A stretch of 20,247 nucleotides of DNA from a virus: positions 19,881-40,127 of the IMG/VR virus record IMGVR_UViG_3300002488_000006; one strand, 5' to 3'. The number at the start of each line of letters is the position of its first letter. Position 1 is the stretch's first letter. Below the pieces are notes generated by a model that was not told the origin of the DNA, did not search any database, and worked only from the letters and a program-made list of their open reading frames with translations. Below, piece after piece: positions 1-20,247 of this stretch. Made by a program: the position numbers and the translations under genes.

Positions 1-2362
1 CTTCAGATAACTGTTCTTGCTGTTGTTGTTGCATGTATTGTTGGAATATATCAGGGTACTTTTCTTGTAACTCTTCTGGAGCAGCTCCGGAATTTAATAA
101 CTCCATAAACTTAGTTTGTCTAGTGGTTTCCTGCTCTGATTGTAGATCATTTAACTTCTGGGTCCAAGCTTCGATCATAGAAGCTGCAGTAGATTTTGTT
201 ATCTCATCACCTTCTTCCATCTCTGTTTTAAATTTAGCAATATTTTTACCAATCTTTTCAGCTGCATCAGCATAACTCATGCCCCAAGTTTTAGAGTTTA
301 AACTCTTAGAAAATACATATTGACCATCTTCAGACTGAACATTTATTCCTCCCTTCTCATGTGAAGGTCCGTTTAACATAGAAACCATAGCTTCATTTGG
401 ATTACCATCTACTTGAGTTGTATCACCATCTGATGTTGGAGGAATAGCTCCTGGTGGATGTATAATTGCTTCTCCTCCTTCTGCTTCATATATTTCTGCA
501 TTAGGGTCTCCTCCAGTATTAAATGAGTTTCCTGCAGTTCCTTGAGACTCAAACATTGCACTTTGTCCTAGAGGATTAAATTGATGTCCTATTATATCTA
601 TTCCAGTACCAGGTTGAAAAGCGTTTGCCCCTTCATCATGAGGAACTCCTCCATGATTCATCTTCTTAGGGTTACCTCCATACCTTACAAGTAAATCATC
701 ACCAGTATTTAATAAGTCATCAGCTCCTATATTGTTAAAATCTATAGGACTATCAGTTGCGTCTCCAACCTTTGGCGTTCCTCCTACATAGTTTCCGGCT
801 ATATCTAGTACATTGCTAGCAAGCTCTCCCCAATCATATGTAGGTCTTTCAATACCAGATTTATTATAACTTGCGATAGCAGTTAAGCCCGATTTTCGTG
901 TACTTAAATCAAGTGTTTCTTTATTAGCTTCTGGATTATTTAGCAATCTTAAATTTGCCTCAGCTTCATGAGCATCTGAGACCATATCTTCATGTTGCTG
1001 AACATTTCCTGCATGACCAAATATATCAGCTACAATATCTAATCCTGTTCCTAAACCAGGAATAACGTAGTTAAAGGCTTTTAAAACATAGTTAGAAAAA
1101 GTGCCATCTTCTCCCGCTGATCCTATTAATTGATTTGCATTTGCGTTACGGCCATCTAAACCAAGTTGATTAACATTACTATAATCAGAAAAGTTTTCAG
1201 AAGGACTCTCATATAAACCAGTTCCCATACCAAGCTCTGCTTTAGGTATTCTTGAAGTTTTATAAGAATGTCCGTGCCCTCCAAACTTTTTCATACCTCC
1301 TATAATTTTAGAACTTAATTCAGCACTTCTGTTTGATTTATCTACATTCCCATAACCATCTATCTCACCAGAGAATAATGGCATCTCATTACCAGCGAAG
1401 TTTATATCATTTAAAAATAACTGTTTCAAAGCTTGCGGATCGCTATTGCTTTGCATTACATCAGATCTTGTTGCATTCTTTGCAAACCACATCTTAAATG
1501 TAGGATCTTCAGTAATGTTTTTTTGTGACGATACATGATAAGGATTTCCTCCTCCTTCGTATCTTTTTCTATATGGATTTCCTCCCATAGCAAAAGTAAT
1601 TTGCTTATCAGGTGTTGTAACGTCTTCTAGCGGTACAGGAGTATCTCTAATACCTCTATTAGTTACTGGCCAGCTTTTATTATTAGGGTGGAAAACATTA
1701 AAGAATAAACCATCCCCATCTTCATAATTTAATATTCTACCATCACTATCAACAAATGTAGCATAAGGATTCTCTAGTTTTAATCGCTCATTTTCTCCAC
1801 GCTTTACTGACATATCATAATACATCTTACCGCCAGCAATTCCGACCCCTAATCCTTTCATCAATAACCCAAGTCCTTGTGTCCATGGTGTTGGTACAGA
1901 CTGTGGAATTTGAGACGCACCTAACCAACCGGCTAATGGAGCTCCTCCATATAGTATTGCATCATCCCAACTAAAGTCAGTATCATTAAGTTGAATAGTT
2001 CTAGTTCTATTAGCGCCTATGGCATCTTCATATTCTTGTAAATCCTGAATAGTTTGTGGAGCGCTCTTAAGAGTATCTGGAAAAAAGTTAAACCACTGAC
2101 TATTTGTAAAAGCATTTACATCAGATTGCTTATCGTCACCCCAGTTATAAGTATTTCTTTTTTCAAGATTCTTTTTATTACCTTCATTATCTTCAGTATA
2201 AGCTGTTGACCAAATCTGTGCTCCTCTTAACTCAGCATCAGTAGCGTTTTTAGGATGTGGTTCTGGATGAGCAAATCCTCCCTTATGCATTTTACGAGGG
2301 TCACCCCCATACTTCATCCAGTATGAGTTACTTTTCTTGGTTTTCTTCTTCTTGTTTGCCAT
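1..2362 (-). CDS. Large crAss-like virion/cargo-type protein (3' end beyond window)
   Basis: The frame is open from the ATG at 2362 to the left edge, giving 787 residues and no stop, so the C-terminus is missing. The N-terminus is very basic (MANKKKKTKK). A glycine motif, GG-x-P-x-KM-x(2)-GG followed by His, occurs at residues 19-29 and again at about 562-572 (nt 650-682). A segment at about nt 250-380 contains NGPSHEKGGINV followed by YVFSKSL. In my recollection this 'GPSHxxGGI...G..(V/I)(F/Y)S' block recurs in large virion proteins of crAss-like and Cellulophaga phages. Hydrophobic Gly/Ala-rich stretches lie near residues 130-160 and 420-445, and the visible end is Gln-rich. It sits directly after the muzzle-like gene, where crAss-like genomes encode cargo or ejected virion proteins. 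The structural role is inferred; no enzymatic motif is visible. The start is preceded by a strong Bacteroidetes-type promoter and a GCTAATG context. Confidence 0.8.
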   Translation of the reverse strand, partial: MANKKKKTKKSNSYWMKYGGDPRKMHKGGFAHPEPHPKNATDAELRGAQIWSTAYTEDNEGNKKNLEKRNTYNWGDDKQSDVNAFTNSQWFNFFPDTLKSAPQTIQDLQEYEDAIGANRTRTIQLNDTDFSWDDAILYGGAPLAGWLGASQIPQSVPTPWTQGLGLLMKGLGVGIAGGKMYYDMSVKRGENERLKLENPYATFVDSDGRILNYEDGDGLFFNVFHPNNKSWPVTNRGIRDTPVPLEDVTTPDKQITFAMGGNPYRKRYEGGGNPYHVSSQKNITEDPTFKMWFAKNATRSDVMQSNSDPQALKQLFLNDINFAGNEMPLFSGEIDGYGNVDKSNRSAELSSKIIGGMKKFGGHGHSYKTSRIPKAELGMGTGLYESPSENFSDYSNVNQLGLDGRNANANQLIGSAGEDGTFSNYVLKAFNYVIPGLGTGLDIVADIFGHAGNVQQHEDMVSDAHEAEANLRLLNNPEANKETLDLSTRKSGLTAIASYNKSGIERPTYDWGELASNVLDIAGNYVGGTPKVGDATDSPIDFNNIGADDLLNTGDDLLVRYGGNPKKMNHGGVPHDEGANAFQPGTGIDIIGHQFNPLGQSAMFESQGTAGNSFNTGGDPNAEIYEAEGGEAIIHPPGAIPPTSDGDTTQVDGNPNEAMVSMLNGPSHEKGGINVQSEDGQYVFSKSLNSKTWGMSYADAAEKIGKNIAKFKTEMEEGDEITKSTAASMIEAWTQKLNDLQSEQETTRQTKFMELLNSGAAPEELQEKYPDIFQQYMQQQQQEQLSE

Positions 2363-2417: not shown

Positions 2418-5400
2418 TTAACGGTAAGAAGGTCTAAAAAATGTTTTAAAATAGTGTAAAACAAACTTAATATTCCTTGGTTGCCCTACTTCTGTGTTAT
2501 AATTATTATATATTAAATCAATAAACATATACTTATCTCTAAGTCTATCTTTATGCTGCCTTGATGGATCATAATTAAATACATTAAATATGTCACCATC
2601 TAAAACAGTCTCATCCATTACATTTCTTGGAACAGCCATTTGCCATTCTCTTTCTTTCTTTTTGATATTAGTCCCTGGAGTTAAATCTATATAGTCTGTT
2701 ATTTGATAATCGGTATAGAATCTAATCTTATCAAACGTATTATTCTTTATATCTATAGGCTGAATATTAGGACCTCCAGTATTTAATCCTACAGTTCCTT
2801 TTATCGGATGATTAGTACTCAAACCTTGATCTAAAATTGTAGAAGCTCTTCCAGCTTCCCATAAACTTTCCATATGAAATGATACATTATCAAATACTTT
2901 AGTAACTGCTGACTCCATATTTGTAATAAAAGTAATAGTACTAGGATAATAAATATCATAAAAGTTTCCATACACACCTACATTATGCATATATAGTTTA
3001 TTTTCTTTCCATCCATAAACATCAGGATCTTGTTCACAAGGATTCTGTGTATTTGGAGTCACAAGAAATTCTGGTGATGAAACGTATATAGTTGGAGTAA
3101 AATCATAGAAAGATGTAAACCCTTGAATTAATTCATTGTATGCTATAGTAGTACTTTTAGTTCCTATACCACACTCTAGATTTGCGACTTGATAATCCTG
3201 CATGTTCCATAGATCATCAAATGTTACATTATCTGGTTGCCATCCCGGGTTAAAATCATTCCACTGCTCTGGAATAACTAATACTATATCTCCTGCCATT
3301 AAGTTGTTAGGATTAGGATTTGGTGTTGGAAAGCCTGGACATCCTACTTTTCCTACCATAACTCCCATATAAGGACCAACACCATTTACTAAAATATTAG
3401 TAGCTACAATCCAATCAAAGTTTCCTGTACCTGTTAAATCAAACTCTTCACAGTCTGCGTTAAAGCATGGATTACATTTATTTCCAGGTACATTACGTAA
3501 AACTAATTGTATAGTTCTAAGTGGAGCAACTCCTACTAAAGAACTATCCATAATAGCTTGATCATATTTTCTTATAAATCCTGCATCATGGAATGTAAAT
3601 AACGCTTCACTATTAGCTACATCATAAGTTGATGTTACTCCTTTTTTAAGTATCGGATTATCATTTCTAAGAACATCACCTTGAAGTTCGTCTGTAAAGA
3701 ATGAGTGTAATCCAGTTACATCAGACAATGGAGTAGTTCCTTTTGAACTATAACTAAAGAGTTTTCTTGCTTTTATATCAAAGAAATAAAGAGCATTATC
3801 TGATTTAGTTACAGCCCATTGCTGACTTGATCCATATGATGTTGATATATATTGATATGATTGAATGAATGCTCCAGCTCCTGTACTTACTGTACCTAAC
3901 TGAAGTGCAACTCCATCCGCACCTTGTACTACAGCTGTAGGATTAACTGATAATGCACCAAAACCTGTATTCTGGAAATAGTACATTGTATCATGAAGTG
4001 ATATAAGTTTGTTTATAGGACCATAAATACCTTCAACATCTTTATAATCTGCCTGTAAAAATACAGCCCATGAATCAGAAGGTTCACCATTAATCTTTGT
4101 TTGTGAATAGTATATTCTTGTATCAAACTCGTCTCCTTTAGAAAAAACCAAAGGAAGTGGGAAATATGATCTAACATTATTCTGAGCATTGTATGCTTCA
4201 TTTACTAAATATTCATCATGAAGATTAACTCCATTGTTAGGAAATGCTCCTGATATTGTTGCTTTAGATGCAAAGTGGTAACCTTGTCTCCATAAAATAT
4301 TTTTATAGTGACATTCTAATGGAATACATACATTTCTTTGTGCTCCCCAATCTGCATCACTAGGTGCTCCAGATCCTCCAGACGCTACTATACTATCATA
4401 ATTATCAAATCCAGTTTGTCCCCAATTCTTCTCAAACTGAGTAAAATCAAATACTTGACATTGTACATCTCCCCCAAAAACCTCGTGAGTAAATGTATTA
4501 TTTAAATTTGTAGAACTATTAATTGGAAAGAAATGACCAGTAGACATATATTCATTATACGTTCTTGCTGCATATGTAGGTCCTCCATATGGTATTGTAT
4601 ATCTTTCATAACTAAAAGTAGATCTACTTGGTGTGTAAGTAAACTCTGCTCCAGCAGTAGAAGCTCCCATTAAATGATCTGCTCCATGCCATTCTTTACC
4701 ATCTTCCTCAAGTCTTGTAAATAAAACTTCACTTCCTATAGACATTGGTCTATTCCACATCCAGGTATATCCTAATGTAGTAGCATTAGCAGATCCTGTA
4801 GCAGGAGGCATTGCATCCATTAAAGCTGCTGCAGCAGGATTAGTCACATTCATAAATGACCACTGCAAGCTTGGTACAGATATATTATCTACAAATCCTC
4901 CATCAGGCACCCATGTTCCCCATTCTAGTGGGTATCTGTTATTTGCAGGGTCTTGTCCATTAAGATTTGATATTACTCCGTTAGTATAGTCTATTTGTGT
5001 AGATTGAGTAGACCCAGCATCACCTCCAATAGAGGTTCTCCCCATATAATATTTATTCCAATGATTAGATCTTTTTTGAATATAACCTGCAATACTACCG
5101 CTTGTAGGAATACTATAATTATTTAACCCCATATCGGCGTTATAGTGTGGATAATAAACTTGATCATTTTTAAGATAATCTCCTTTCTTTATAGGGAAAG
5201 TTACTTCTAAACCTTCATCTAAATTACCTTCTTCAGATATATCACTATTCTTCCAACCTAATGCACCATATAATAATAACTCTGTTTTTCTTGTCTGACA
5301 TACCCAATAAGGATTATCATTATCAAATATTACAGTCCACTGATCATCATTCCATACAGGATTATCACATTCATCTCCAGCTCCCGCAGGACCATCAGCA

Positions 5401-7982
5401 TACATAATACCCCATCCTCCACAAGGGAAGTGTACATATCCTGTAGAAGGTATTAATACACTTTGTTTATTATCTACTATCCAGTTATAACCAGGCATAG
5501 GAGAAAGAGAATCCCACTTACTTCCTCTCATATCTAATCTATCTACTGTATGTACAGCAGCTGTTCCGAATCTAGATTTATCTCCATCTTTTCTATCTAC
5601 TCTAACTATAGAATAACCAGTAAGACCGTTTAATATTACAGGATCTATACTAGTCATATCTACTGAGAATTCTATACCTATTTGATTCATACGTACTTGG
5701 CCATAAGGACTAATGGTATGAGGATTTCCTTGAGCGTCGTCTGGTGCCCAATAAGTAGGACTATTAAAGTCTGGTACCCAACTAGACACTGCAAATGTTC
5801 CAAGAGGTGTTCCGGCTCCTGCAGAATAACTAAAAGGTATTTTTATATCTCCTATCCAGTTAACAAAACTAGCTTGTCCTTTATTATTATAAAATACAAT
5901 ACCAAACCTATAAACTTCTCCTCTTGCATAACTACCATATAAACTCCATTTATAAGGAGACTTCATACTGTTATAAGTATTATTCATTTCATAACTCTGA
6001 ACAGGTATACCTAAATTTTCTGTTCCTGCTAAGAAAGCAGGAAGAATTAGTATTCCACCATTAAAAGATGCGGGGTCTACAAAGCATGCTCTTCTTGGTT
6101 CTGTATTATATGTACCGCAATATACATCTGTATAATAAGTCATATAAAATAAGCTAGGATGATCTCGCTGAGAATCTCCTACATCTTGTTCAGTAATAAA
6201 TTTATATGAAACATTAACTCCTGTTCCTCCTAAAGTTAGTCCATCAGATTGAAACTGAAACTGGTCTGTTGTGAACCAGTCTGGATTTGAGTCTGGGTTT
6301 TCATCATTAAATGCATTAATACAATCATGTAGTTCTGGAACCAGGGCAGGAAAAATTGTTCCAGGCGCACCTGTAGTAGCTACATTAATAGACGCTTCAG
6401 ATTGAGAATCTAATCTTGCTACCTGTCCCGCGTTATATCTATAAGCCCTTGCATCAAAATCTACAATAAAAGTAGAGTTTTCAATATTACCAAAAAATAA
6501 TTTATTATCTTTTGAATCTATTGTTTTTACTTTTTCAAACGTGGCTCCTAATCCTGTAACGAAATCTAAAAGTGTAACAGGGATTTTAGTCTCATTTCCA
6601 GTATGAGTAACAGTTAAAGTACTAGATCCATTAACATATTCTCCAAAAATATATATCTGATCATTAGCAGGAATATCATCTTTTTTATAGACTGCTGCTA
6701 CTTCAATTAATTCAAATGATGTATCTAGTTCAGAGATTGTCCAATCTATTCGTTTAATAGTTTCTTTTCCAACTAATGGAGCTGTATTCATATCTAATTC
6801 TGTTCCCTGAATTTCACAGTATGGAATATCATCTGTTGAATCATATATAGGAACTAAGTTAGATAGAGGAGACCATTCAGTAGTAATACCCTCACTACTT
6901 TTATATCTATATGCTAATTGGTATAATCCAGCATTTAGGACTCCTCCTAATTGAATCCTTTCTAAGATAGGCTGAGAGAATCCAGTTTTAGGTGCTAAGT
7001 CTAAAAACGCACATGGTGTAGACATAGCAAGACCACTAGCTATATTTAATTTCCTTGGAGGATTATAGAAGTCGGTCCAATAAATAGTTTGAATATCTCG
7101 TTTTTCATATCTTCCCAAAGCCTCAATAGGATGAGCCTTTGTGAAATTCATACATTCGTTTCTTGCATAGATACATTCCATGTATGCTCTATAACCTACT
7201 GCAGAATTTATTGCAGGATCTATATAGAGTTCCCAAATTTGTCCAGCACCTCCAGGTTCTGCTTCAAGATTAGTAGTAAATAAATAAATACGTTCTCTTA
7301 GATTTGCATAACCTATAATAGATAAAGATCCCTGAGCTACCGCCAGATTACTAGTCGTTATAAAATTTGCTGGGATTCCTCCAAGCGTCATAGTTAATAC
7401 AGGATTTGTAACTTGTTGGACTTGGTTTCCTATTAAAGTTAAAGTTGATTGAGGAAATAATCTAAAGTCAGCCTCTAAAGGTTTACCCCATAGAATTAAT
7501 CTGTTAGAAGAATCATCAAATATATAATAGAATCCAGGCAGACCATCTGCTATAGTAGAAGGAGGTGCAGTTAATGCTGCTCCATTTAAATTCCAAGCTC
7601 CTGCACTAATATCAGTTATTGTTCTAACAAGTTCTCGAATAGGATTTCCTCCTGTACCACTTACAGTAATATCGAATATTCCCCAAGAACCTGCAGAGAA
7701 AGTAATACCCAGTGTCCAAGCCGTACCTGATACATCTACATCAGGATCTTGCTTTACTTCCCACACTGCTGGAGAAGATGGAATATCTAACAAATGATCA
7801 TTACCTTCAATATTAACTGCAGCAGCTCCTTCTTTACCTGAGTTAGCTACAATTCTAATGTTGTTAGCATTGTAATATTGATCAGACTTCATAGCATACT
7901 TAGATATATCTTGATTCATACCTTTGTAAAAAGTATTCAAGCTAACAGGTATACCTTGTCCTTTTTTCTTTTCTTCTGCCAT
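2418..7982 (-). CDS. crAss-like stabilization/muzzle-type tail protein
   Basis: This 1854-residue protein begins MAEEKKKGQGIPVS and then NTFYKGMNQDISK, YYNANNIRIV and a Gly-Asn pair (IEGND). That opening layout (aromatic-x-GMN-x-D, then a Y-x-A-x-N-I-R block) is what I recognise at the start of crAss-like 'stabilization' proteins, later placed structurally as the tail muzzle. The C-terminus fits the same family: KEREWQMAVPRN, then DRLRDKYMFIDL, then FVLHYFKTFFRPSYR. The long middle is rich in aromatic residues, Asn, Gly and Thr and looks beta-rich, consistent with stacked beta domains. No catalytic motif is evident. The ATG overlaps the stop of the preceding ring-protein gene by one base (TAATG), implying coupled translation. 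In the virion it would close the distal end of the short tail and probably contact receptor or ejected cargo. Family assignment is by pattern memory; the fold of the middle is inferred. Confidence 0.8.
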   Translation of the reverse strand: MAEEKKKGQGIPVSLNTFYKGMNQDISKYAMKSDQYYNANNIRIVANSGKEGAAAVNIEGNDHLLDIPSSPAVWEVKQDPDVDVSGTAWTLGITFSAGSWGIFDITVSGTGGNPIRELVRTITDISAGAWNLNGAALTAPPSTIADGLPGFYYIFDDSSNRLILWGKPLEADFRLFPQSTLTLIGNQVQQVTNPVLTMTLGGIPANFITTSNLAVAQGSLSIIGYANLRERIYLFTTNLEAEPGGAGQIWELYIDPAINSAVGYRAYMECIYARNECMNFTKAHPIEALGRYEKRDIQTIYWTDFYNPPRKLNIASGLAMSTPCAFLDLAPKTGFSQPILERIQLGGVLNAGLYQLAYRYKSSEGITTEWSPLSNLVPIYDSTDDIPYCEIQGTELDMNTAPLVGKETIKRIDWTISELDTSFELIEVAAVYKKDDIPANDQIYIFGEYVNGSSTLTVTHTGNETKIPVTLLDFVTGLGATFEKVKTIDSKDNKLFFGNIENSTFIVDFDARAYRYNAGQVARLDSQSEASINVATTGAPGTIFPALVPELHDCINAFNDENPDSNPDWFTTDQFQFQSDGLTLGGTGVNVSYKFITEQDVGDSQRDHPSLFYMTYYTDVYCGTYNTEPRRACFVDPASFNGGILILPAFLAGTENLGIPVQSYEMNNTYNSMKSPYKWSLYGSYARGEVYRFGIVFYNNKGQASFVNWIGDIKIPFSYSAGAGTPLGTFAVSSWVPDFNSPTYWAPDDAQGNPHTISPYGQVRMNQIGIEFSVDMTSIDPVILNGLTGYSIVRVDRKDGDKSRFGTAAVHTVDRLDMRGSKWDSLSPMPGYNWIVDNKQSVLIPSTGYVHFPCGGWGIMYADGPAGAGDECDNPVWNDDQWTVIFDNDNPYWVCQTRKTELLLYGALGWKNSDISEEGNLDEGLEVTFPIKKGDYLKNDQVYYPHYNADMGLNNYSIPTSGSIAGYIQKRSNHWNKYYMGRTSIGGDAGSTQSTQIDYTNGVISNLNGQDPANNRYPLEWGTWVPDGGFVDNISVPSLQWSFMNVTNPAAAALMDAMPPATGSANATTLGYTWMWNRPMSIGSEVLFTRLEEDGKEWHGADHLMGASTAGAEFTYTPSRSTFSYERYTIPYGGPTYAARTYNEYMSTGHFFPINSSTNLNNTFTHEVFGGDVQCQVFDFTQFEKNWGQTGFDNYDSIVASGGSGAPSDADWGAQRNVCIPLECHYKNILWRQGYHFASKATISGAFPNNGVNLHDEYLVNEAYNAQNNVRSYFPLPLVFSKGDEFDTRIYYSQTKINGEPSDSWAVFLQADYKDVEGIYGPINKLISLHDTMYYFQNTGFGALSVNPTAVVQGADGVALQLGTVSTGAGAFIQSYQYISTSYGSSQQWAVTKSDNALYFFDIKARKLFSYSSKGTTPLSDVTGLHSFFTDELQGDVLRNDNPILKKGVTSTYDVANSEALFTFHDAGFIRKYDQAIMDSSLVGVAPLRTIQLVLRNVPGNKCNPCFNADCEEFDLTGTGNFDWIVATNILVNGVGPYMGVMVGKVGCPGFPTPNPNPNNLMAGDIVLVIPEQWNDFNPGWQPDNVTFDDLWNMQDYQVANLECGIGTKSTTIAYNELIQGFTSFYDFTPTIYVSSPEFLVTPNTQNPCEQDPDVYGWKENKLYMHNVGVYGNFYDIYYPSTITFITNMESAVTKVFDNVSFHMESLWEAGRASTILDQGLSTNHPIKGTVGLNTGGPNIQPIDIKNNTFDKIRFYTDYQITDYIDLTPGTNIKKKEREWQMAVPRNVMDETVLDGDIFNVFNYDPSRQHKDRLRDKYMFIDLIYNNYNTEVGQPRNIKFVLHYFKTFFRPSYR

Positions 7983-9884: not shown

Positions 9885-11030
9885 TTAAATATTTACCTGT
9901 AAATAACCTTCACATCCCTTTTCCTTATTCCATATATATGCTTGAGCACATCTTGATGCGGAATACCCCATCAGTTTGTGCCAAGAATCGTTAGCGCATA
10001 TTGAAGGAACAAATCTGACTTTAATTCCTCTATACTCGTTAACCATTTCTTTATGAAGATGTCCGCAATGAACTTCTCTAAATTTAGTTCGTGCAAACAT
10101 CATCGGCTGCTCTGTAGCCATTATTAGTGGCATCTGTGCAGCTTTCTCTTTATCCCCATGAGTAAACATAATCATGTTGGTTCCGTATTCATAGTACTTT
10201 CTTCCTTCTGTACTATTGTCTACAGTAACATTCTTATCTTGCATATACCACGCAGATAAAACTTCACCTGCATAAAACATACGCTCATGATCGTGATTAC
10301 CTTGAACTACTACTACATCTACTGGAGCATACTGGCTTAGATAATTTATAGCTTTTATCATTAGCTTTGTATACCCAACAAAAGATTGTTGCCAGTCCAT
10401 TGTATCATCTTGAGGAGTTCCTTTCGTTGTGGCCCTACTAGCACCTTCAGAATTCATTCCGTCATTACCTATAGGAAGTAAGAACCTTTCAATATTTAAT
10501 CCTTCTGCTCGCTGATGTAATTCCTGAATTGAATTCATATAATTAATCTCAGCCTGCTCAGGACTAATACCTGTTCTCTTACCGTAATGAATATCTGGTA
10601 AAGATATTTCATATACAACAGGATTCTCCTTTTTTATATCATACGATCTTTTTAGAATCGTAGGGGATATAGATTTTAAACTTTCAAAGAACTCATCTTT
10701 CACATCTCTCATCGCTTGATCTCCCTCTTTTGTTACTATAGAGTAACGAGTTTGACCCTTCATTGTTTGCCATATCTTCACAGACTTGACGTTGGATCGG
10801 TCTAATCCTTCGGCGGTTAATAAAGAGTTAAAGTCAGAATCATTGATATTTATATTATCATTATCAATTTCATCTTCTTCTCTCTCCCATTTAAACCCTC
10901 CAGCGCTTTTACGCTGACCTTTTAAAACTTTGCAGATACTGCCTTTATCAATATCTGTTCTTTCAGACGCTTCGGTTAAACTAATATATCGTCCTACTAA
11001 TTGACCTTCGTGCGTTATTTGTAGTATCAT
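9885..11030 (-). CDS. Calcineurin-like metallophosphoesterase with IENR1/NUMOD1-like N-terminus
   Basis: This 381-residue protein has two visible parts. Residues about 4-50 (GRYISLTEASERTDIDKGSI, then CKVLKGQRKSAGGFKWER) match the IENR1/NUMOD1 helix-turn-helix module usually attached to phage homing endonucleases. Residues about 138-381 carry the whole metallophosphoesterase signature: D146-x-H148, GND at 188-190, GNHD at 244-247, HGD at 291-293 and GHLH at 323-326. These should bind two metal ions and hydrolyse a phosphoester bond; the closest functional relatives are SbcD/Mre11-type nucleases and phage phosphatases. Substrate is unknown, and the DNA-binding-like N-terminus favours nucleic acid. 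No GIY-YIG or HNH nuclease motif is present. It lies six bases downstream of the coiled-coil gene and four bases upstream of the gp4-like gene, an unusual place for an enzyme. Confidence 0.88.
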   Translation of the reverse strand: MILQITHEGQLVGRYISLTEASERTDIDKGSICKVLKGQRKSAGGFKWEREEDEIDNDNININDSDFNSLLTAEGLDRSNVKSVKIWQTMKGQTRYSIVTKEGDQAMRDVKDEFFESLKSISPTILKRSYDIKKENPVVYEISLPDIHYGKRTGISPEQAEINYMNSIQELHQRAEGLNIERFLLPIGNDGMNSEGASRATTKGTPQDDTMDWQQSFVGYTKLMIKAINYLSQYAPVDVVVVQGNHDHERMFYAGEVLSAWYMQDKNVTVDNSTEGRKYYEYGTNMIMFTHGDKEKAAQMPLIMATEQPMMFARTKFREVHCGHLHKEMVNEYRGIKVRFVPSICANDSWHKLMGYSASRCAQAYIWNKEKGCEGYLQVNI

Positions 11031-11403: not shown

Positions 11404-11970
11404 CTATTTGTTTATTTTAAAATTATACATTATTCCAATACTGTGTGTTTTATCAAGAACTCCATATCTATAAAAATATGAATTGCTCTTCTTTGTAGTA
11501 AAACCCACAATAGGAGAAAAGTTAAATTTGTCAACACTTCCTCCTACCTCTATGCCCGCATTCAAACTAAAATTAGTTTTTCTAATTGTAGTAGTTTGAT
11601 TAGTATTTATAATTACTGTATCAGTTTGGATTATATACTGAGGAAAACTCGGAATATAATCAAAAGACTGATCTAGTAGCTTACCATTTACTCTAGTCCA
11701 AACCTCTCCTGATATTAAACTATCACTAAACTCATTAACATATTCATTAATATTACCTTCTATTTTAACCGGCTCAGTAACTTTGACGATTACTTTGCGG
11801 ATAACTGTATCAACAAATTGAACAGTATCCACAACAGTAATCCTAGTCGTATCAGTATGTACTTCTGTAGTTATCTCATCGATAACTTTTGGCGTGTCTG
11901 AACAATTCTGAAGGAACAGTATATATACAAACAGACCTAAAATAATATATATTTTAGGATCAGATTTCAT
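11404..11970 (-). CDS. Spanin-like membrane-anchored protein
   Basis: I place the start at the ATG at 11970 (188 residues), because that ATG overlaps the holin-like TAA by one base (TAATG). A longer in-frame reading from 12027 would lie inside the holin-like gene. Residues 6-21 form a hydrophobic segment ending LFLQNC, with Cys23 followed by SDTPK. It resembles a signal anchor or an imperfect lipobox, since Asn before Cys is not the usual Gly/Ala/Ser. A Thr/Val-rich stretch with repeated DT(V/I) pairs follows (HTDTT, VVDTVQFVDTV). The last 55 residues read as alternating beta strands with aromatic ends (FSLNAGIEVGG, FSPIVGFTTKK, HSIGIMYNFK), as in small outer-membrane barrels. Its location after a holin-like gene suggests a spanin-type role in outer-membrane disruption. 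Both spanin identity and lipidation are inferred. Confidence 0.68.
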   Translation of the reverse strand: MKSDPKIYIILGLFVYILFLQNCSDTPKVIDEITTEVHTDTTRITVVDTVQFVDTVIRKVIVKVTEPVKIEGNINEYVNEFSDSLISGEVWTRVNGKLLDQSFDYIPSFPQYIIQTDTVIINTNQTTTIRKTNFSLNAGIEVGGSVDKFNFSPIVGFTTKKSNSYFYRYGVLDKTHSIGIMYNFKINK

Positions 11971-12188
11971 TATTCCCAGAATAGCATTTTGGTAAGCACT
12001 CCCGCAAGCGCTATCCAAATAGACCAAAGTACTTTTGTTGTTGATTTACGAAACGAAGTATTTCTATTTACACGAGCTGTCACTCCTGTATCCGGATCTA
12101 AAAGTTTAGCTTTAATAAATCTAACGTCATCTTTAATATCCTGGATATTTTCATGTAGTTCTGTGTTTGAAATTCTTCTTTTCGTCAT
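11970..12188 (-). CDS. Holin-like small membrane protein (XhlA-like layout)
   Basis: A 72-residue protein with a charged helical N-terminus (ELHENIQDIKDDVRFIKAKL) and one C-terminal transmembrane segment at about residues 51-70 (TKVLWSIWIALAGVLTKMLF). Only two residues follow the membrane segment. This layout, with an N-terminal amphipathic or coiled-coil helix and a single C-terminal membrane helix, is that of XhlA-type holin accessory proteins. It is immediately followed by the spanin-like gene through a TAATG overlap, supporting a lysis pair. The gene starts 11 A/T-rich bases after the preceding stop. No endolysin is visible in the window. A membrane anchor for another virion protein is an alternative. 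Confidence 0.65.
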   Translation of the reverse strand: MTKRRISNTELHENIQDIKDDVRFIKAKLLDPDTGVTARVNRNTSFRKSTTKVLWSIWIALAGVLTKMLFWE

Positions 12189-13123: not shown

Positions 13124-13133
13124 AATTAGCAAT
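13101..13133 (-). promoter_or_regulatory. Candidate Bacteroidetes promoter after the adhesin gene
   Basis: On the minus strand ATTG (13133-13130) is followed by 21 bases and TATATTTG (13108-13101), matching the TTG / TAnnTTTG Flavobacterium consensus. It overlaps the adhesin stop codon and the start of the small basic gene. Initiation a few bases downstream would fall at or near the ATG at 13096, giving a leaderless or near-leaderless transcript. It could supply the small-protein and lysis genes independently of the long adhesin transcript. AT-rich sequence makes chance matches possible. Confidence 0.35.
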
Positions 13134-16100
13134 CTGATAAATATTCTTTCCATAAATCATACAACATTGTAGAACTTAGATCCATTATCGGATAATCTGG
13201 TATATGGAAAGTCATGTTATAATTACTTAATGAACCTCCCAGATAACCAGTAGTAAGCGTAGGATCTCCCCCGCCTGCTGCTCCCATATATGGATTTGGT
13301 ATAGTAACATCTGTTGCTACAAAACACTCGAATCCGTACATTGCTGGAACACCTACATAACTTGCACAATCTATATGACCAGCAAAAGATATATTTGCAT
13401 CAAGACTCTGAGCTCCTACTGCTCCCATTAAGTGATATAAGAAATCTCTTCTTGTATCTACAACAGCTGTTGTACTGTGATCAACCCAAGACCCTGCATA
13501 TATCATTGTTTTTAATGTAACATTGTATGATGATGAAGCAGCATTAGACACTCCGCTTGCATTCCAACCAAACTCATGAAGACTCATAAAGTTATTATAA
13601 TCATTCTTCCATTGTGGCTGTAGCGCATTAGCTGGTCCTGTTCCTATACTGTGCCAGTTAATACCTGGAGCACCTCCCCATAACGCATTTCCACAAGTAC
13701 CTCCCCACTGATTAACATTAGTATTGGTTTCATGGTATCCGCCTGGATTACCTCTAGACTCATCTTGGAATATAATCACAATAGCGTCATTATCTCCTCC
13801 CTCAAATTCATGATAAGGATCACTAAATCCTTCTTGGCCTATAGGATCTTGCCATGGGTTAACCTGATTAAATCCATCTGTGTTATAAGAACCAGGTAAG
13901 ATCATTAACTGTTGTAATAAAGGTCCGTGTACAGCAGCCTCGTATGCTGGTATATTACAATCAAATGGTGCTCCTCCTACTCCATTAACCATTGTGTGTC
14001 CCATAATTGTTCTCTGGTTTGCAGGTAAAGTTCCTGTTGCCATTGGGTTTGCTCCGGCTCCATTTGCTCCCGCATTACCACTCATCGGATAGTTAACCCA
14101 AGCCAACCAATCTTCTGGTGCTGTATTACTACCTGGTGCTGCTGCTCCTGTTCCATTACAATTATTACAAGGACCAAACTGTGACCCGTGAGGCCAAGCC
14201 CCAGGAATAATATATAGATGTCCTGAGTATGTTGGATTATCTGTTTGTATCTGAGCAAAAGCAGGTTCAATTACATCTACTTTAAACTGTACAGCTTTTT
14301 GTAACCTTTCTAGGAATGTACCTCCAAATGTTGAAGTTATATCTAGGAATACATATATATTACTATTACCAAAGCATCCTGTATCACACGTTACTTCTTG
14401 ATCAGTTAATCCAAATGGTACATTACAATCATCACATACATCAGCTACTTTATCAAAGAACTTTTTCATATCTATTTCATCTAAACAATTCTCACATGTA
14501 GTTTCAAATGTTCCTTCTTCTGGTTCGTAACTAGCACAGTCTACAGCACAATCTTGTAAGGTTGGGTATTGTCCTGTTCCTGCATAGTTTGGTATACATC
14601 CAAATGCTGGATCACAGTCATATGTTACTGTTACTCCGGCACATGTTGGATCTGTTGGACATCCGTTGCATGCAGCACAAGCTGCTAAACCTCCATTAGT
14701 ATTATTGAATGCTCCACTTCCATCTCCAGGATCTAGACATTGTGTTACTCCATTATTTACAACACAGTTATATGATTCTACATAACACGGTTGTGTATTC
14801 GTAGATACTGCAGTAGTACAATCAACTAATGTTGCAAAGGTACCTGAACCATCTCCTGGATCAGAACAACTATACTGATTAGTAGATGCACTATAAATAC
14901 AATTATATGATTCTGGTGTACCACAATCTTGTATACATGCCGATACACTAGCGTACTGACCAAGGCCTGTGCCTGGATCATAACATGTTCCTGTAACAGG
15001 GTCACAATCCCATGAGTCTGGATTAGGACAACAAGGTGGATCTGCTAAACATGCCGCTTGGGTTGCAAACCCTGCTCCTGCTGATGGTACACAATTACAT
15101 CCTCCCATTGGATCACATTCCCACATCTGTGAACCTAAACAAGCTGCACATGATGCAAACGATGCAGTTACTGCTACAGCTAAACAAGTACCAGGATCAC
15201 ACATATTATTATCATCACAGTCTATTTCCCAACAAGTTTGAGTGTTTCCATTTATTTGTATTATATCTCCATTTATAAATGCTGTATCTAATGCCGCACT
15301 CTGGCATACATTATTAATAACAATGTTTGGATCTGAACAATCTGTTAATTTATAACAAATACATCCTCCACCAGCTACACAATCTGGACAATTTGGATGA
15401 ACTGTATTTATAACAACTGCTCCTACTGGGTTACATGAACCTGTTCCACATGTACCACATGCCTGAACTTCATAACATTCAGTTGTATTTAATGGTGCTG
15501 GTGGCGCTCCTCCTAGTGTTACTACATCTCCTAATTGACCAGATAGATCATTTGTTACTACAGTACAAGTACTATTACAGAAACAAAGCCCTCCATTTAT
15601 TGCAAAACAAGCTAATGTTCCATCCAGACTAACATAGTTGGCTTGCAACCATGCTTTCATTGTATCATAATCCATAGTAGCATTACCATAACCTGCTGCT
15701 ACTAGTTCAGCTCTAGCTGTAGACCAACTCTGAGCTTGACTCCAATAATAATTAGTCATACCATCTAATGGATCATTCATAGTACCACATTTATAAATAC
15801 GTATTCCTTGCAATCTAGCTATAGCGTTTCCAGTAACATTATCATAACATACACCTGAGCTGCTAGGCAGTGAACCAGTAATTAACTTTTTACTGTTATG
15901 CGTATCAGTTGGAGTATTTACGGAATATTCCTGATAATTTTGTGAATATCCTGCAATAGTAGTAGATATTAAAGTTGCTGCACTACACGAGTCATAACTA
16001 GGGGTACAAGGACATAATTGATAACATGTTTGCGTTGAACTACAACAGTCTACACAAGCTGGATATGTATTTGTAACTACAACAGCGACTGTTCCAGCTG

Positions 16101-19100
16101 CAGGACAAGGATCTGGTCCCGCACAATTTATTTCATAACATGCTCCTGGGTATAGATCTATTTCTACTACAGTTCCTGTACCTATTGTTCCGTCACAATA
16201 TCCTGACATATCTGTAGTAGTAATTATTTGAGCTGGTGCTCCCATACTAGTATCACAACTACATAAATCTAATGTCCAACATGGACTTACTGGATCACAA
16301 TCATCACAATCTCCAGTTGGGTTTCCTGAAACTAAATTTACAGGATTAACTAGTGGAACTCCTGCTGGACATGGGTTTTCTATTTCAACAGTCCAACATC
16401 TTTCTCCTGCTGCATCTCCATTATCCCAAGTTATTATTCCTCCTACATATGCTGAAAGCGCTGGATCATCAGAGTATTCTGTAATATATGTACATCCACT
16501 ACCTAAACATACTCCATCTTGACATGCATAGTTTGGATCATCATTTCCGTAAATACCACATGTAGCTCTTCTATCATATATTCCTTCTGGGCCCATAAGA
16601 CCAGTTGGGAATACAGTACCAAAAGAAGCAGTGGTTGCAAATGGTCCCATCAAAGCATCACCATTAGGAATAACTCCAGCTGGTGTTGGATACATACTAG
16701 GGCATGTAGAATCAGATTGATAACAAGGACAATCACAATTTGCAGCTTGAGGACCAAAGGTTAAGAAATCATGACCATATCCAAATGCGTGTAGTATTTC
16801 GTGTATACCTACTCTGATTAAATCAAATGAATTTGCTACTACGGCATCTCCTGCTTTTCTCCAATCTTCATTTGCATCGAATAATAATAAACCTACATAC
16901 GGAGAAGTTTTAGCAATTCCTGGGTTATTATTATTTATATCTCCTGTAAAGCATAATCCTAATATTCCTGACGCTGCTCCTGTATTTCCACAAGGGCCAT
17001 CTATAGCTCCGAAGTCTGCAAAACCAATTCTAAAGTCTCCTATTCCTGCTACTCCATTACTATCAGTAAAAGATGTTCCATTAGAACTTGCTATAGTATT
17101 TGTTCCCATTGCTGGATCACCTGCAGTATATCCAGTTTCATATCCTAAATCTGTAAAGTTAACAGTTAGGTTAGCTCCATATCCACAATTTGTATTAAAC
17201 ATTCCTTCGAACATAGCTTTAATGTTATTAAACATTGTTACCATTTCTGCTCTAAACTGTACAAATGTAATTTGATATGTTTTATTATAAGGAGCACATG
17301 CACTACTAGTACCTGTTGGATTAGCTGTACCTGGCCCTTGTTCTACAGCTTTAGCTGGTCCAAATCCTGGATACCCTCCTCCTAATGGGAATGTAGCCCC
17401 ATCATTAATAAAGCTATAGCTAAAGTTTACTGTTTGTGCTATACCTGGTGATGCAGTAGTTCCTAATGCTTGTACTGCATTTACTATTGCTTGCCATCTT
17501 TGAGTTACATTTCCAGAAGTACAAGTTGGTGACCAACTCTTTCCGTATGTAACCATAGGAGCAGGCATTGTAGCTGGATCATTTACAGCACATTGATTAT
17601 ATCCTGATGTCCCTCCAGTACATTCACATTCTGTTAATTTATAACAGAAGTTTGGTGGAGGTGCACAATCTGTACAATCAGTATGTGTAGCTGTAATTGT
17701 AGGATCTGGGCTTATAACATTTGCCGGATCACACGGACAAGGCATATTTAACCATACTGGGAATCTTTCTCCCATTCGTCTATTACCAATATCAAATGAT
17801 CCTACTGGAGTTACAAATGTTAATTGATCTTCTATTGATACACCACTAGTAGGATTACTAAGTCTTAATAGAGAATTTGTAACCTGTTGTCCTTGTCCTA
17901 TTGATAATTTATATATATCATCTTGAGTCCATTCTACCATAGATAACCATAAGTTATTATCAGGACCCATAGTCATATCTGTAATTGCAACATTACATCT
18001 AGTTTCATCTGGCGGAGTTCCTCCTAACCATCCACTAGCAGTAGAAGCGTCAGGGAATGTTTTTTGGGAAAGTGTCGTATTTGGGGAAGAACCAACAACA
18101 GGGAAAGAAAACATATATTTATTAGGATCAGTATCAAAGGTATTTCCATCATTAGTTGAACTAGGCGTTACCCATCCATTTGTAATCATTAATTCATTTG
18201 CATAGTCTTTTATTTTCATCACATTTAGACCCCATCCAGATTGAACTAAAGGTAAATTAAATGGATCAGAAGGCTCATAATAATTTGCATATGCGTAAAT
18301 GAGGTAGTCTCCACCCGCACTAAATGCTAGAGTCCTAGGTTTATCCATACCTAAAAATCCAGTATATCCTCCAAATGTAACATTTTGTTCTTGGTAAGAT
18401 CCTCCTAGAATCCAAGAATATGCTCCATTTTGAGCTCCTGCATTCCAGCCATCATTACTGATTAATCCAGTAGTAGCTGTAGCAGATAACGCTGTAGTAG
18501 GGTTTAGCCCCCAAACATGCAATATCCAGTTTTGATTAAATCCAGTTTTTGACTGATTTGTTCTTATTGCTATAATATCATTTGTTTGATTAACCACCAT
18601 CTCTCCTGAAAACTGGATATTGGAAGAATCCCATCTACCAAATGGCATATCTACTGCCATAAAAGGTGTACCTATTCCGGCGTTACTAAATTTAATAGCT
18701 TGAATATTCTGATTATTAAGGTCAGTACCATTAGCCATAGGAGGTATAAAGAAGAAATGCCAGTAAGCTCCTGATCCTATTCCAGTTGTAGTATTAACAC
18801 ACATCATCTCAGCGGCACTTGCTACTAATGTAGTATTAGCCGATGCAGCTAATACTTCTCCTTTTCCACTGTTTAAAGTCATATCAACAATAGACCATTT
18901 TATAGGACCATTATGACATGAATTTTGTATAACATAATATTGTTTCCATACATTTCCTACTAATCCTCCTGCTGCATTTGGTATAACTAATGCTCCTTGA
19001 GCTGGGAATGTTTTTCCATCATCACCTACTGTTCCTACATTTGCATCTCCTTTATGTACAGCTCCCGAATCAAGGTTCATCTTAGTATGAGTTCTATCAT

Positions 19101-20247
19101 ATATATAATGACCGTCAGTATAGAACATTAAATCTCCTGCCGCAAAAGCGTGTCCACCTAGAGTAGCGGCTTCTGTTGCAGAGTGAACTGCTGATCCTCT
19201 AAATGTCCAAGCATCAGCACCTATAGCATTACTAGCGTTGTAAGTAAGCATATCAGACATTCCATTCATATCAGACACAGGTGCTCCCGAACTAAAATCT
19301 ATTCCGAGCCTTTCTCCATAGAACCAATGTGTACCTGCTATTGGATTTCCTGATGTTAAACATTGTTTCCAACATCCTAATTGTCCAGATAATTCTACGA
19401 CATCTGTTCCAATACTATTTCCTAATCCTCCTGATACAGTAATAGTAATACCTGGATCAGTACATGATTCTAGTAGTGTACATTCTAAAGGACATGGATC
19501 AATTAAACAATAAGTACAATCTGGCATATTACCTGTACCTACTGTTGCAGTATTAATTGCATTTACATCTGCGTCTGGTAATACACCTACACAATCAGCA
19601 TTAGCACTTACTGTCCAACACCCTGTATAAATAACACCAGCTACTGTTATATCTGCTTGTACTACTGCTCCAACATCTGCTGCTGTAATTCCTGTTGTTA
19701 CATTAACAATTTGATCTGGTACATAACTAGTTCCACAACAATGTGATACTTTTACACATGTTTGACCTGCAGTCGCACATGCTGCACAATCAGCGTAACT
19801 TGCAGTTATAGCTGCAGTAGGATATGTTACTGTTGTAGGGCCTATACAGCCTACTAATACTTTAAAACAGTTATCTTGAGCTACTCCTCCTATTGTAATA
19901 TCATGGGCATTAGCTGCTCCTATGAAAGGATGAAGTGTTGTTGATGACGCATAATCAACATTAATTATAGCACCGGTAACACAATCTTCAACTCTTAAGT
20001 AATATATACAATTAGCACAATCAACTTGTGTACTTGCTACACTTAAATTAGCTTCAGTTCCTTGTGGGCCTGAAGGATTAAGTTGTACTTCTCTACAGAA
20101 GCATTCTCCAGTTAAGTTAACTACTACTCCTGCTGCAAAATAACCATCTATACCTGGAGTTGATACAGCTGTTGCTCCATTAACTGTATACACAACATTA
20201 CTAGCATCTCCACATTTAGGTAATTTATAGTAAATAGGGTCTGGTAC
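13126..20247 (-). CDS. Giant multidomain Cys-rich adhesin/tail fibre with embedded metalloprotease (5' end beyond window)
   Basis: The frame is open to the right edge, beginning VPDPIYYKLPKC, so 2373 residues are visible and the true N-terminus is missing. An in-frame GTG at 20193 is only an internal codon. In order: Cys-rich modules 1-3 (20247-19507), module 4 split by a propeller-like domain (19359-17743), and module 5 split by a metzincin protease domain (17589-16495). Then come module 6, module 7 split by an unknown domain (16005-15568), module 8, five short Cys-rich repeats (15126-14530) and a vWA-like C-terminal region (about 14500-13129). The dense cysteines suggest an extracellular, disulfide-stabilised virion protein. 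It leads an operon of lysis and tail genes, so a host-contact fibre or adhesin is the best reading. The protease could cleave host surface proteins, glycoprotein layers or itself. Function is inferred from domains. Confidence 0.85.
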   Translation of the reverse strand, partial: VPDPIYYKLPKCGDASNVVYTVNGATAVSTPGIDGYFAAGVVVNLTGECFCREVQLNPSGPQGTEANLSVASTQVDCANCIYYLRVEDCVTGAIINVDYASSTTLHPFIGAANAHDITIGGVAQDNCFKVLVGCIGPTTVTYPTAAITASYADCAACATAGQTCVKVSHCCGTSYVPDQIVNVTTGITAADVGAVVQADITVAGVIYTGCWTVSANADCVGVLPDADVNAINTATVGTGNMPDCTYCLIDPCPLECTLLESCTDPGITITVSGGLGNSIGTDVVELSGQLGCWKQCLTSGNPIAGTHWFYGERLGIDFSSGAPVSDMNGMSDMLTYNASNAIGADAWTFRGSAVHSATEAATLGGHAFAAGDLMFYTDGHYIYDRTHTKMNLDSGAVHKGDANVGTVGDDGKTFPAQGALVIPNAAGGLVGNVWKQYYVIQNSCHNGPIKWSIVDMTLNSGKGEVLAASANTTLVASAAEMMCVNTTTGIGSGAYWHFFFIPPMANGTDLNNQNIQAIKFSNAGIGTPFMAVDMPFGRWDSSNIQFSGEMVVNQTNDIIAIRTNQSKTGFNQNWILHVWGLNPTTALSATATTGLISNDGWNAGAQNGAYSWILGGSYQEQNVTFGGYTGFLGMDKPRTLAFSAGGDYLIYAYANYYEPSDPFNLPLVQSGWGLNVMKIKDYANELMITNGWVTPSSTNDGNTFDTDPNKYMFSFPVVGSSPNTTLSQKTFPDASTASGWLGGTPPDETRCNVAITDMTMGPDNNLWLSMVEWTQDDIYKLSIGQGQQVTNSLLRLSNPTSGVSIEDQLTFVTPVGSFDIGNRRMGERFPVWLNMPCPCDPANVISPDPTITATHTDCTDCAPPPNFCYKLTECECTGGTSGYNQCAVNDPATMPAPMVTYGKSWSPTCTSGNVTQRWQAIVNAVQALGTTASPGIAQTVNFSYSFINDGATFPLGGGYPGFGPAKAVEQGPGTANPTGTSSACAPYNKTYQITFVQFRAEMVTMFNNIKAMFEGMFNTNCGYGANLTVNFTDLGYETGYTAGDPAMGTNTIASSNGTSFTDSNGVAGIGDFRIGFADFGAIDGPCGNTGAASGILGLCFTGDINNNNPGIAKTSPYVGLLLFDANEDWRKAGDAVVANSFDLIRVGIHEILHAFGYGHDFLTFGPQAANCDCPCYQSDSTCPSMYPTPAGVIPNGDALMGPFATTASFGTVFPTGLMGPEGIYDRRATCGIYGNDDPNYACQDGVCLGSGCTYITEYSDDPALSAYVGGIITWDNGDAAGERCWTVEIENPCPAGVPLVNPVNLVSGNPTGDCDDCDPVSPCWTLDLCSCDTSMGAPAQIITTTDMSGYCDGTIGTGTVVEIDLYPGACYEINCAGPDPCPAAGTVAVVVTNTYPACVDCCSSTQTCYQLCPCTPSYDSCSAATLISTTIAGYSQNYQEYSVNTPTDTHNSKKLITGSLPSSSGVCYDNVTGNAIARLQGIRIYKCGTMNDPLDGMTNYYWSQAQSWSTARAELVAAGYGNATMDYDTMKAWLQANYVSLDGTLACFAINGGLCFCNSTCTVVTNDLSGQLGDVVTLGGAPPAPLNTTECYEVQACGTCGTGSCNPVGAVVINTVHPNCPDCVAGGGCICYKLTDCSDPNIVINNVCQSAALDTAFINGDIIQINGNTQTCWEIDCDDNNMCDPGTCLAVAVTASFASCAACLGSQMWECDPMGGCNCVPSAGAGFATQAACLADPPCCPNPDSWDCDPVTGTCYDPGTGLGQYASVSACIQDCGTPESYNCIYSASTNQYSCSDPGDGSGTFATLVDCTTAVSTNTQPCYVESYNCVVNNGVTQCLDPGDGSGAFNNTNGGLAACAACNGCPTDPTCAGVTVTYDCDPAFGCIPNYAGTGQYPTLQDCAVDCASYEPEEGTFETTCENCLDEIDMKKFFDKVADVCDDCNVPFGLTDQEVTCDTGCFGNSNIYVFLDITSTFGGTFLERLQKAVQFKVDVIEPAFAQIQTDNPTYSGHLYIIPGAWPHGSQFGPCNNCNGTGAAAPGSNTAPEDWLAWVNYPMSGNAGANGAGANPMATGTLPANQRTIMGHTMVNGVGGAPFDCNIPAYEAAVHGPLLQQLMILPGSYNTDGFNQVNPWQDPIGQEGFSDPYHEFEGGDNDAIVIIFQDESRGNPGGYHETNTNVNQWGGTCGNALWGGAPGINWHSIGTGPANALQPQWKNDYNNFMSLHEFGWNASGVSNAASSSYNVTLKTMIYAGSWVDHSTTAVVDTRRDFLYHLMGAVGAQSLDANISFAGHIDCASYVGVPAMYGFECFVATDVTIPNPYMGAAGGGDPTLTTGYLGGSLSNYNMTFHIPDYPIMDLSSTMLYDLWKEYLSDC
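13129..14500 (-). other. vWA-like C-terminal region of the adhesin
   Basis: NIYVFLDITST (Asp at 14343-14341) resembles the first strand and MIDAS loop of a von Willebrand A domain, but with DxTxT instead of DxSxS. A helix (FLERLQKAVQFKVDVIEPAF), a strand (GHLYIIPGAWP) and DNDAIVIIFQDES follow, in the order expected of alternating beta/alpha vWA elements. It is preceded by two CxxC pairs and an acidic helix. The protein ends DLWKEYLSDC. Assignment is tentative. Confidence 0.45.
14530..15126 (-). repeat. Five tandem short Cys-rich repeats
   Basis: Units begin at WECDP (15123), WDCDP (15012), YNCIY (14907), YNCVV (14772) and YDCDP (14622), so they are 35-50 residues long. The shared pattern is (W/Y)-x-C-x(5-10)-C-x-(D/P)-x-G-x-G-x-(Y/F)-x-(S/T)-x-x-x-C-x-x-x-C. 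The third and fourth units share SCSDPGDGSG/CLDPGDGSG. Similar Cys/Gly repeats are known from marine phage and Bacteroidetes extracellular proteins. They probably form a flexible, disulfide-rich stalk before the C-terminal domain. Confidence 0.7.
15568..16005 (-). other. Unknown domain inserted in scaffold module 7
   Basis: About 145 residues separate the opening CYQLCPC of module 7 from its continuation CTVVTNDLSGQLGDVVTLGG. The insert has a Ser/Thr-rich start, a central region ARLQGIRIYKCG, then a helical stretch (WSQAQSWSTARAELVAAGYG and MKAWLQANYV) and CFAINGGLCFC. I recognise no family. Confidence 0.5.
16495..17589 (-). other. Metzincin (matrixin-like) zinc protease domain
   Basis: The domain holds HEILHAFGYGH at 16803-16771, the complete HExxHxxGxxH zinc motif of metzincins, followed by Asp. 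About 23 residues later CPSMYPTP has the form of a matrixin Met-turn (x-MYP). A second candidate, GLMGPEG, lies further on. Upstream, TVNFSYSFIND fits the typical 'hxYxF' first strand, and GLLLFDANEDWR precedes the active-site helix. The catalytic Glu and three His ligands are intact, so activity is plausible. No clear propeptide Cys-switch was found. Confidence 0.8.
17743..19359 (-). other. Propeller-like domain resembling Bacteroidetes surface proteins
   Basis: About 540 residues within the adhesin. The opening HWFYGERLGIDFSSGAP, then GDLMFYTDGHYIYDR with HTKM, then QGALVIPN, QYYVIQ and KWSIVDMTLNSGKGEVL, and a later AYWHFFFIP follow a fixed order. I recognise that order from N-terminal regions of Bacteroidetes gliding-motility/T9SS type B-sorted surface proteins (W-x-F/Y-G-x-x-x-G-x-DF, L-x-FYTDG, YSxVDMxxxxGxG). 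In those proteins the region is predicted to be a beta-propeller. Resemblance is by memory, and the fold is inferred. Confidence 0.6.

Follow-up and report, generated by a model that had tools for sequence, protein, structure and literature searches.

The stretch of DNA analysed here (the window, 20,247 nt) corresponds to G000:C1:19881-40127 of a 65,972-bp virus record and ends inside a giant gene. The whole open frame of this gene occupies G000:C1 33009-44018 on the minus strand (3670 codons) and likely starts at codon 7, yielding a protein of ~3660 aa, of which the C-terminal 2373 aa are encoded in the window (13126-20247, minus strand). All parts of this protein described below lie on the minus strand and are given in window coordinates unless stated otherwise. 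Residues 1-1703 of the in-window part (15139-20247) contain eight Cys-rich modules of ~75 aa each (M1 to M8), and their motif positions and sequence agree with the original prediction. The count of eight holds for the window but not for the gene, which is ~1297 aa longer and carries a ninth module without insert (M0) directly outside; the first codon beyond the window end (G000:C1 40128-40130) reads X. The scaffold is followed by five or so short Cys-rich repeats (14521-15138), seen in the sequence and conserved in relatives, with the pattern W/YxCDP...CxxPGTGxGxY...C. The protein ends with a conserved domain (13129-14520), for which no match was obtained in Pfam or PDB searches. This C-terminal domain contains IYVFLDITSTFGG and AIVIIFQDES, and by eye a faint likeness to the von Willebrand A MIDAS motif can be seen.

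The virus is crAss-like (Crassvirales). Crassvirus-type portal (phrog_6547, 4e-170), major capsid (phrog_11589, 2e-123), terminase (phrog_6681, 2e-137) and stabilization/muzzle genes are present in one structural block. In a tblastn comparison, the product of window 2418-7982 (minus strand) showed 25-29% identity to the stabilization proteins of crAss-like phages, including that of Cellulophaga phage phi14:2, and this protein is probably the muzzle (PMC10172136). A metallophosphoesterase gene (9885-11030, minus strand) is placed relative to the stabilization-protein gene as in phi14:2. The order on the minus strand is terminase, portal, endolysin-like gene, major capsid, several small genes and a gene for a collagen-like protein with a tail-collar domain, followed by a 226-aa gene, the giant gene, small genes, the phosphoesterase, virion proteins and the stabilization protein. 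The order in phi14:2 is alike (phosphoesterase, structural, hypothetical, structural and stabilization-type structural protein), and several structural proteins from this stretch were detected by mass spectrometry. The gene order therefore assigns the giant gene to the tail portion of this block, and its product shows no similarity to the structural proteins of phi14:2 detected by mass spectrometry at the matching place. The collagen-like protein (G000:C1 44702-45583), which has the tail-collar match and a Cys-rich N-terminus, is encoded directly upstream of the giant gene and its 226-aa neighbour in the fibre block.

Five of the modules in the window are unsplit and match the module profile: M1 (20008-20235), M2 (19777-20007), M3 (19507-19770), M6 (16045-16296) and M8 (15139-15372). 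Together with M0, these share four invariant Cys residues and the pattern CYxL..C - GxVV - CWEV - DCxxC. The remaining three are recognizable only in parts. M4 opens with CTLLESC...GCWKQC (19360-19485; protein residues 256-296) and is completed, after an insert of ~539 aa, by PCPCDP...DCTDC (17665-17742; residues 836-861). M5 consists of NFCYKLTECECTG (17614-17652; CYKLTECEC at residues 868-876) and CTYITEYSDDP...DCDDC (16297-16494; residues 1252-1317), separated by ~373 aa, and M7 of CSSTQTCYQLCPC (16006-16044; CYQLCPC at residues 1408-1414) and CTVVTNDLSG...CPDC (15379-15567; residues 1561-1623), separated by ~146 aa. Two spans were measured in the modules, from the first Cys to the Cys of CWEV and from the latter to the last Cys. 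In unsplit modules these are 33-55 and 27-40 aa, a few being longer in a distant clade. The insert lies in loop 2 in M4 and in loop 1 in M5 and M7, and the inserts thus occupy two different loops, as had been proposed.

A first profile was built from the six unsplit modules (M0, M1, M2, M3, M6 and M8), with M4, M5 and M7 left out. The flanks of M4 fit this profile at complementary positions (6-51 and 58-82), as do those of M5 (4-15 and 19-82), each flank alone being weak. A larger profile, drawn from nine viruses and comprising 50 unsplit modules, gave scores of 32.5 bits for M4, 37.5 bits for M5 and 12.9 bits for M7 when their flanks from the window virus were rejoined. As a null, 400 shuffles with every Cys held in place were generated per case; the joined score was reached by none of the 400 in 21 of 22 module-virus cases and by two of the 400 in the remaining one. 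In M4 and M5, the scores of the two parts add up approximately to that of the joined module. By profile, M7 gives the weakest case (joined 12.9 bits, less than the 17.2 bits of its C flank alone), because its N flank is very short (12 residues). The relatives nevertheless settle that M7 is a split module, since three distant viruses have nothing in its socket, as described below. The claim that modules 4, 5 and 7 rejoin across large inserts is thus borne out by complementary profile halves, by rejoined scores above those of Cys-fixed shuffles and by the empty M7 of relatives.

AlphaFold models were obtained for M6-M8 (9 sequences, mean pLDDT 73, pTM 0.44) and for M4 and M5 (13 sequences, mean pLDDT 60). 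In these low-confidence models, split and unsplit modules have the same order of secondary structures (strand, strand, helix, strand, strand, strand, helix), and in M4, M5 and M7 this order is complete only if read across the insert. At this confidence, the models do not demonstrate that the two halves of a split module pack together, as they presumably would. A comparison of the M6-M8 model with the PDB gave nothing at a Z of 2 or more, from which novelty of the fold does not follow, and a PDB search with the module profile and with this model of modest confidence also gave no match.

Relatives of the giant protein were located via the neighbouring gene at 2418-7982 and then by two scans with conserved parts of the protein. 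When 50,697 phage records were searched by tblastn with the window protein, no match was obtained; a scan of viral contigs with the giant protein as a single query found no relative, and the module alignment was too diverse to be used as a query. The neighbouring gene and the two scans led to 14 further distinct relatives, several of which are truncated by contig ends. The closest one, G1, is 69-77% identical to the window protein, and over M4 and M5 the identity drops to 28-32% in the most distant ones, L073, L074, L075 and L077. In L053, the giant gene is seemingly frameshifted near position 9993, close to the C-terminus, and continues in another frame, either by a sequencing error or in reality.

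The comparison revealed large variation at the loop-1 socket of M7. In the window virus, it holds insert 7 (15568-16005), a ~146-aa domain without any match in the databases searched, which belongs to a homologous family of ~140-160 aa. The loop-1 span of M7 is 181-198 aa with one insert. In G1 and G9, the socket is doubly filled by two homologous domains in tandem (336 and 355 aa). In L073, L074 and L075, it is empty (40-52 aa), and M7 is a plain continuous module, which in L073 scores 22.4 bits (0/400 shuffles). In L077, another module is split: M6, which is unsplit in the window virus, carries an interrupting domain of 414 aa in the loop that also holds the insert of M4, and its rejoined halves score 21.6 bits (0/400). 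This domain has no match in Pfam or PDB and is unrelated to the other inserts. Furthermore, G4 and L53 are 37% identical inside insert 7 but 69-83% identical elsewhere, whereas G4 and G10 are 73% identical inside insert 7 and 37-65% elsewhere. The trees conflict in the same manner: that of the flanks groups G4 with L53 (100/100) and G10 with G11 (97/98), whereas that of insert 7 groups G4 with G10 (92/96), beside G11 (95/96). Both the identities and the conflicting trees show that the insert-7 cargo has been exchanged between lineages. The view of one repeated scaffold that accepts unrelated plug-in domains gained support from these relatives, in which we found no insert, two inserts, an exchanged one or a different one in another module. 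The label 'Matryoshka', under which this architecture was first presented, is overstated, because none of the inserts was seen within another insert.

The inserts of M4 and M5 show a different history. The loop-2 span of M4 is 438-647 aa in every relative covering M4, the loop-1 span of M5 is 410-619 aa in every relative covering M5, and no empty counterpart of either insert was present among the relatives found. Inserts 4 and 5 are therefore ancestral in this group; they are old and kept, and the socket of M7 is changeable.

Insert 4 (17743-19359) is, according to its AlphaFold model, a seven-bladed beta-propeller, of the kind found in type IX secretion system (T9SS) proteins of Bacteroidota. 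Structural alignment of model residues ~53-595 with solved propellers gave Z scores of 15-18. Bacterial relatives of this domain were found at 79 genome loci, nearly all of them in named Bacteroidota; all eight relatives scanned carry T9SS sorting domains, and most carry PKD domains. The insert is also homologous to the N-terminal domain of the giant protein itself (probability 99.7, E 2.8e-25), and the two domains are therefore paralogues. The N-terminal ~1200 aa outside the window (G000:C1 40235-44000) contain this propeller-type domain and a second propeller-like stretch, and the Cys flanks in this region resemble two further split modules, M-2 and M-1. When M-1, with the second propeller-like insert, was rejoined, its score was reached by 95 of 400 shuffles in the window virus and by none of 400 in L073. 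The split of M-2 is likely by eye but is clearly discernible in the distant clade alone. M-1, which fails against the shuffles in the window virus, and M-2 were both excluded from the claim of split modules.

Insert 5 (16495-17613) is, judging from its sequence, a metzincin and thus a predicted zinc protease. The H, E, H, G and H of its zinc-binding motif HExxHxxGxxH (HEILHAFGYGHD, 16768-16803) and a downstream Met at the position of the Met-turn are invariant in 13 relatives. All 13 match Matrixin (best 1.4e-8), and the nearest PDB profiles are those of myroilysin (4e-4) and karilysin (1e-3), both of which are proteins of Bacteroidota. Insert 5 may therefore act in proteolysis.

From these findings, we consider it rather likely that the giant protein forms a tail appendage of this crAss-like phage, its cargo, displayed on split modules, most likely contacting or trimming the host surface. 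Its gene position, its extracellular-type domains and its exchanged cargo suggest that it is probably a tail fibre and would be present in the virion. A receptor-binding role is likely in view of the gene position, the domain types and the fast-changing cargo of M7. Points against the tail-appendage reading are that neither a lectin nor another known family of receptor-binding proteins turned up in the giant protein and that it does not resemble the phi14:2 structural proteins mentioned above. The host of this phage would belong to the Bacteroidota. The backbone would be a row of approximately nine or more ~75-aa Cys-rich beta modules. At a split module, the chain would exit at one of two surface loops, fold a complete foreign domain and re-enter to complete the module, leaving the foreign domain to project sideways from the backbone. 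During adsorption, the most likely targets of these projecting domains, for contact or trimming, would be proteins or glycans of the host surface.

A second explanation, which we regard as unlikely but which deserves consideration, accepts this architecture but assumes that the protein is not a host-binding fibre. Instead, it would be secreted or ejected so as to reach the interior or the surface of the host, and the protease and propellers that it carries would be active once entry has taken place or when the cell lyses. In favour of this, crassviruses are described as carriers of large cargo proteins, which they eject (PMC10172136), and the metzincin could process host proteins. However, the high Cys content and the likely disulfide-rich fold fit an extracellular protein, the propeller is typical of secreted surface proteins of Bacteroidota, a gene for a collagen-like tail fibre neighbours the giant gene, and the recent exchange of cargo is in keeping with host recognition. 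Considerably less probable is an arrangement like beads on a string, in which the Cys segments beside the inserts would be separate small domains and the propeller, the protease and insert 7 ordinary domains in between. In its favour, the flanks are short and rich in Cys, few bits come from the N flanks of M5 and M7, and the confidence of the predicted models is low. Such an arrangement is nevertheless at odds with the complementary, non-overlapping fit of the M4 and M5 flanks to one profile, with a secondary-structure order that is completed only across the insert, and with a continuous M7 at the same place in three relatives and a split M6 in another. The view that the repeat is an artefact of composition and no real module can practically be dismissed, because, although Cys-rich sequences do give rise to spurious similarity, the Cys-fixed shuffles (on average approximately -7 to 0 bits) almost never reach the real score, and conservation extends to the residues between the Cys positions in 14 relatives of 40-70% identity.

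The tail-appendage reading can be compared with several known systems. In RTX adhesins, such as AhLap of Aeromonas hydrophila, certain domains of the scaffold accommodate an entire projecting domain within their chain (CBM, RTX-like or vWFA), and this domain splitting has been used as a mark for finding ligand-binding domains (PMC12077191; related PMC10865825). Both the RTX adhesins and the protein described here, for which the likeness is at the sequence level, are very long repeat proteins in which some scaffold domains are split by a whole projecting domain. However, RTX adhesins have an Ig-like scaffold, Ca2+-rich beta-rolls and type I secretion, whereas here small Cys-rich modules of a crAss-like phage carry a propeller and a metzincin as cargo. 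The giant protein thus works like a split-domain RTX adhesin but is not a member of that family, because it is a phage gene product and no RTX family was found among the Pfam matches of the window protein up to E 1. The evolved Dit proteins of Gram-positive siphophages, which contain CBMs inserted in the loops of the galectin domain (PMC7291167), are likewise phage adhesion proteins with plug-in domains in fixed loops, the presence of which varies among phages. In the siphophage baseplate, a single Dit domain bears one or two CBMs, in contrast to the row of modules, the two loop positions and the unrelated cargo in this podovirus-like crassvirus of Gram-negative Bacteroidota; no Dit family was detected in the giant protein in Pfam or PHROGs.

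Among crassvirus proteins, BACON repeats are known tandem domains of crAss-like phages (PMC6949934). They are similarly small beta domains in tandem in a putative tail-associated protein, but splitting by cargo is not described for them in that report, and no BACON match was found in the giant protein in Pfam up to E 1. The muzzle protein gp44 of phi-crAss001 (PMC10172136) is also a crassvirus tail protein and has Ig-like domains inserted in a propeller. It is, however, encoded by a separate gene, the homologue of which is probably that at window 2418-7982, and its propeller is the host of the insertion, whereas the propeller of the giant protein is the guest. An uncharacterised relative has already been deposited, namely a viral protein in BFVD (A0A516LFR9) that is 52% identical over M6-M8. 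Searches of the open-access literature for a scaffold of this type in crassviruses yielded no description. The suggestion that the plug-in scaffold is novel therefore requires a distinction: the principle has already been described for RTX adhesins and Dit loops, but this scaffold and its exchange record appear to be undescribed.

Crassviruses are very abundant, and their fibre-based host recognition is poorly known. Recognizable sockets would allow likely host-contact domains to be found as interruptions of modules, as with RTX adhesins, and in the exchange at socket 7 nature would have provided an experiment on host switching. If the giant protein is a tail protein, as is likely, its metzincin would point to adsorption assisted by a protease. 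As a more far-reaching and tentative possibility, environmental crassviruses may have a socketed host-interaction platform, i.e. a disulfide-rich modular fibre with cargo refilled between lineages, which displays an active metzincin and T9SS-type propellers acting on surface proteins of Bacteroidota during adsorption.

Some other genes of the record also attracted our attention. The protein adjoining the stabilization gene (window 2-2362; L007 4756-8205) contains repeated YGG..KK/PKKM motifs and is a possible virion cargo protein. At the end of the record, an open frame (G000:C1 1-14934) encodes 4978 aa or more and is a candidate for a giant virion protein. Finally, a small protein encoded at window 11404-12027 has a membrane- or lipobox-like start (FLQNCSDTPK) and may be a spanin-like lipoprotein.
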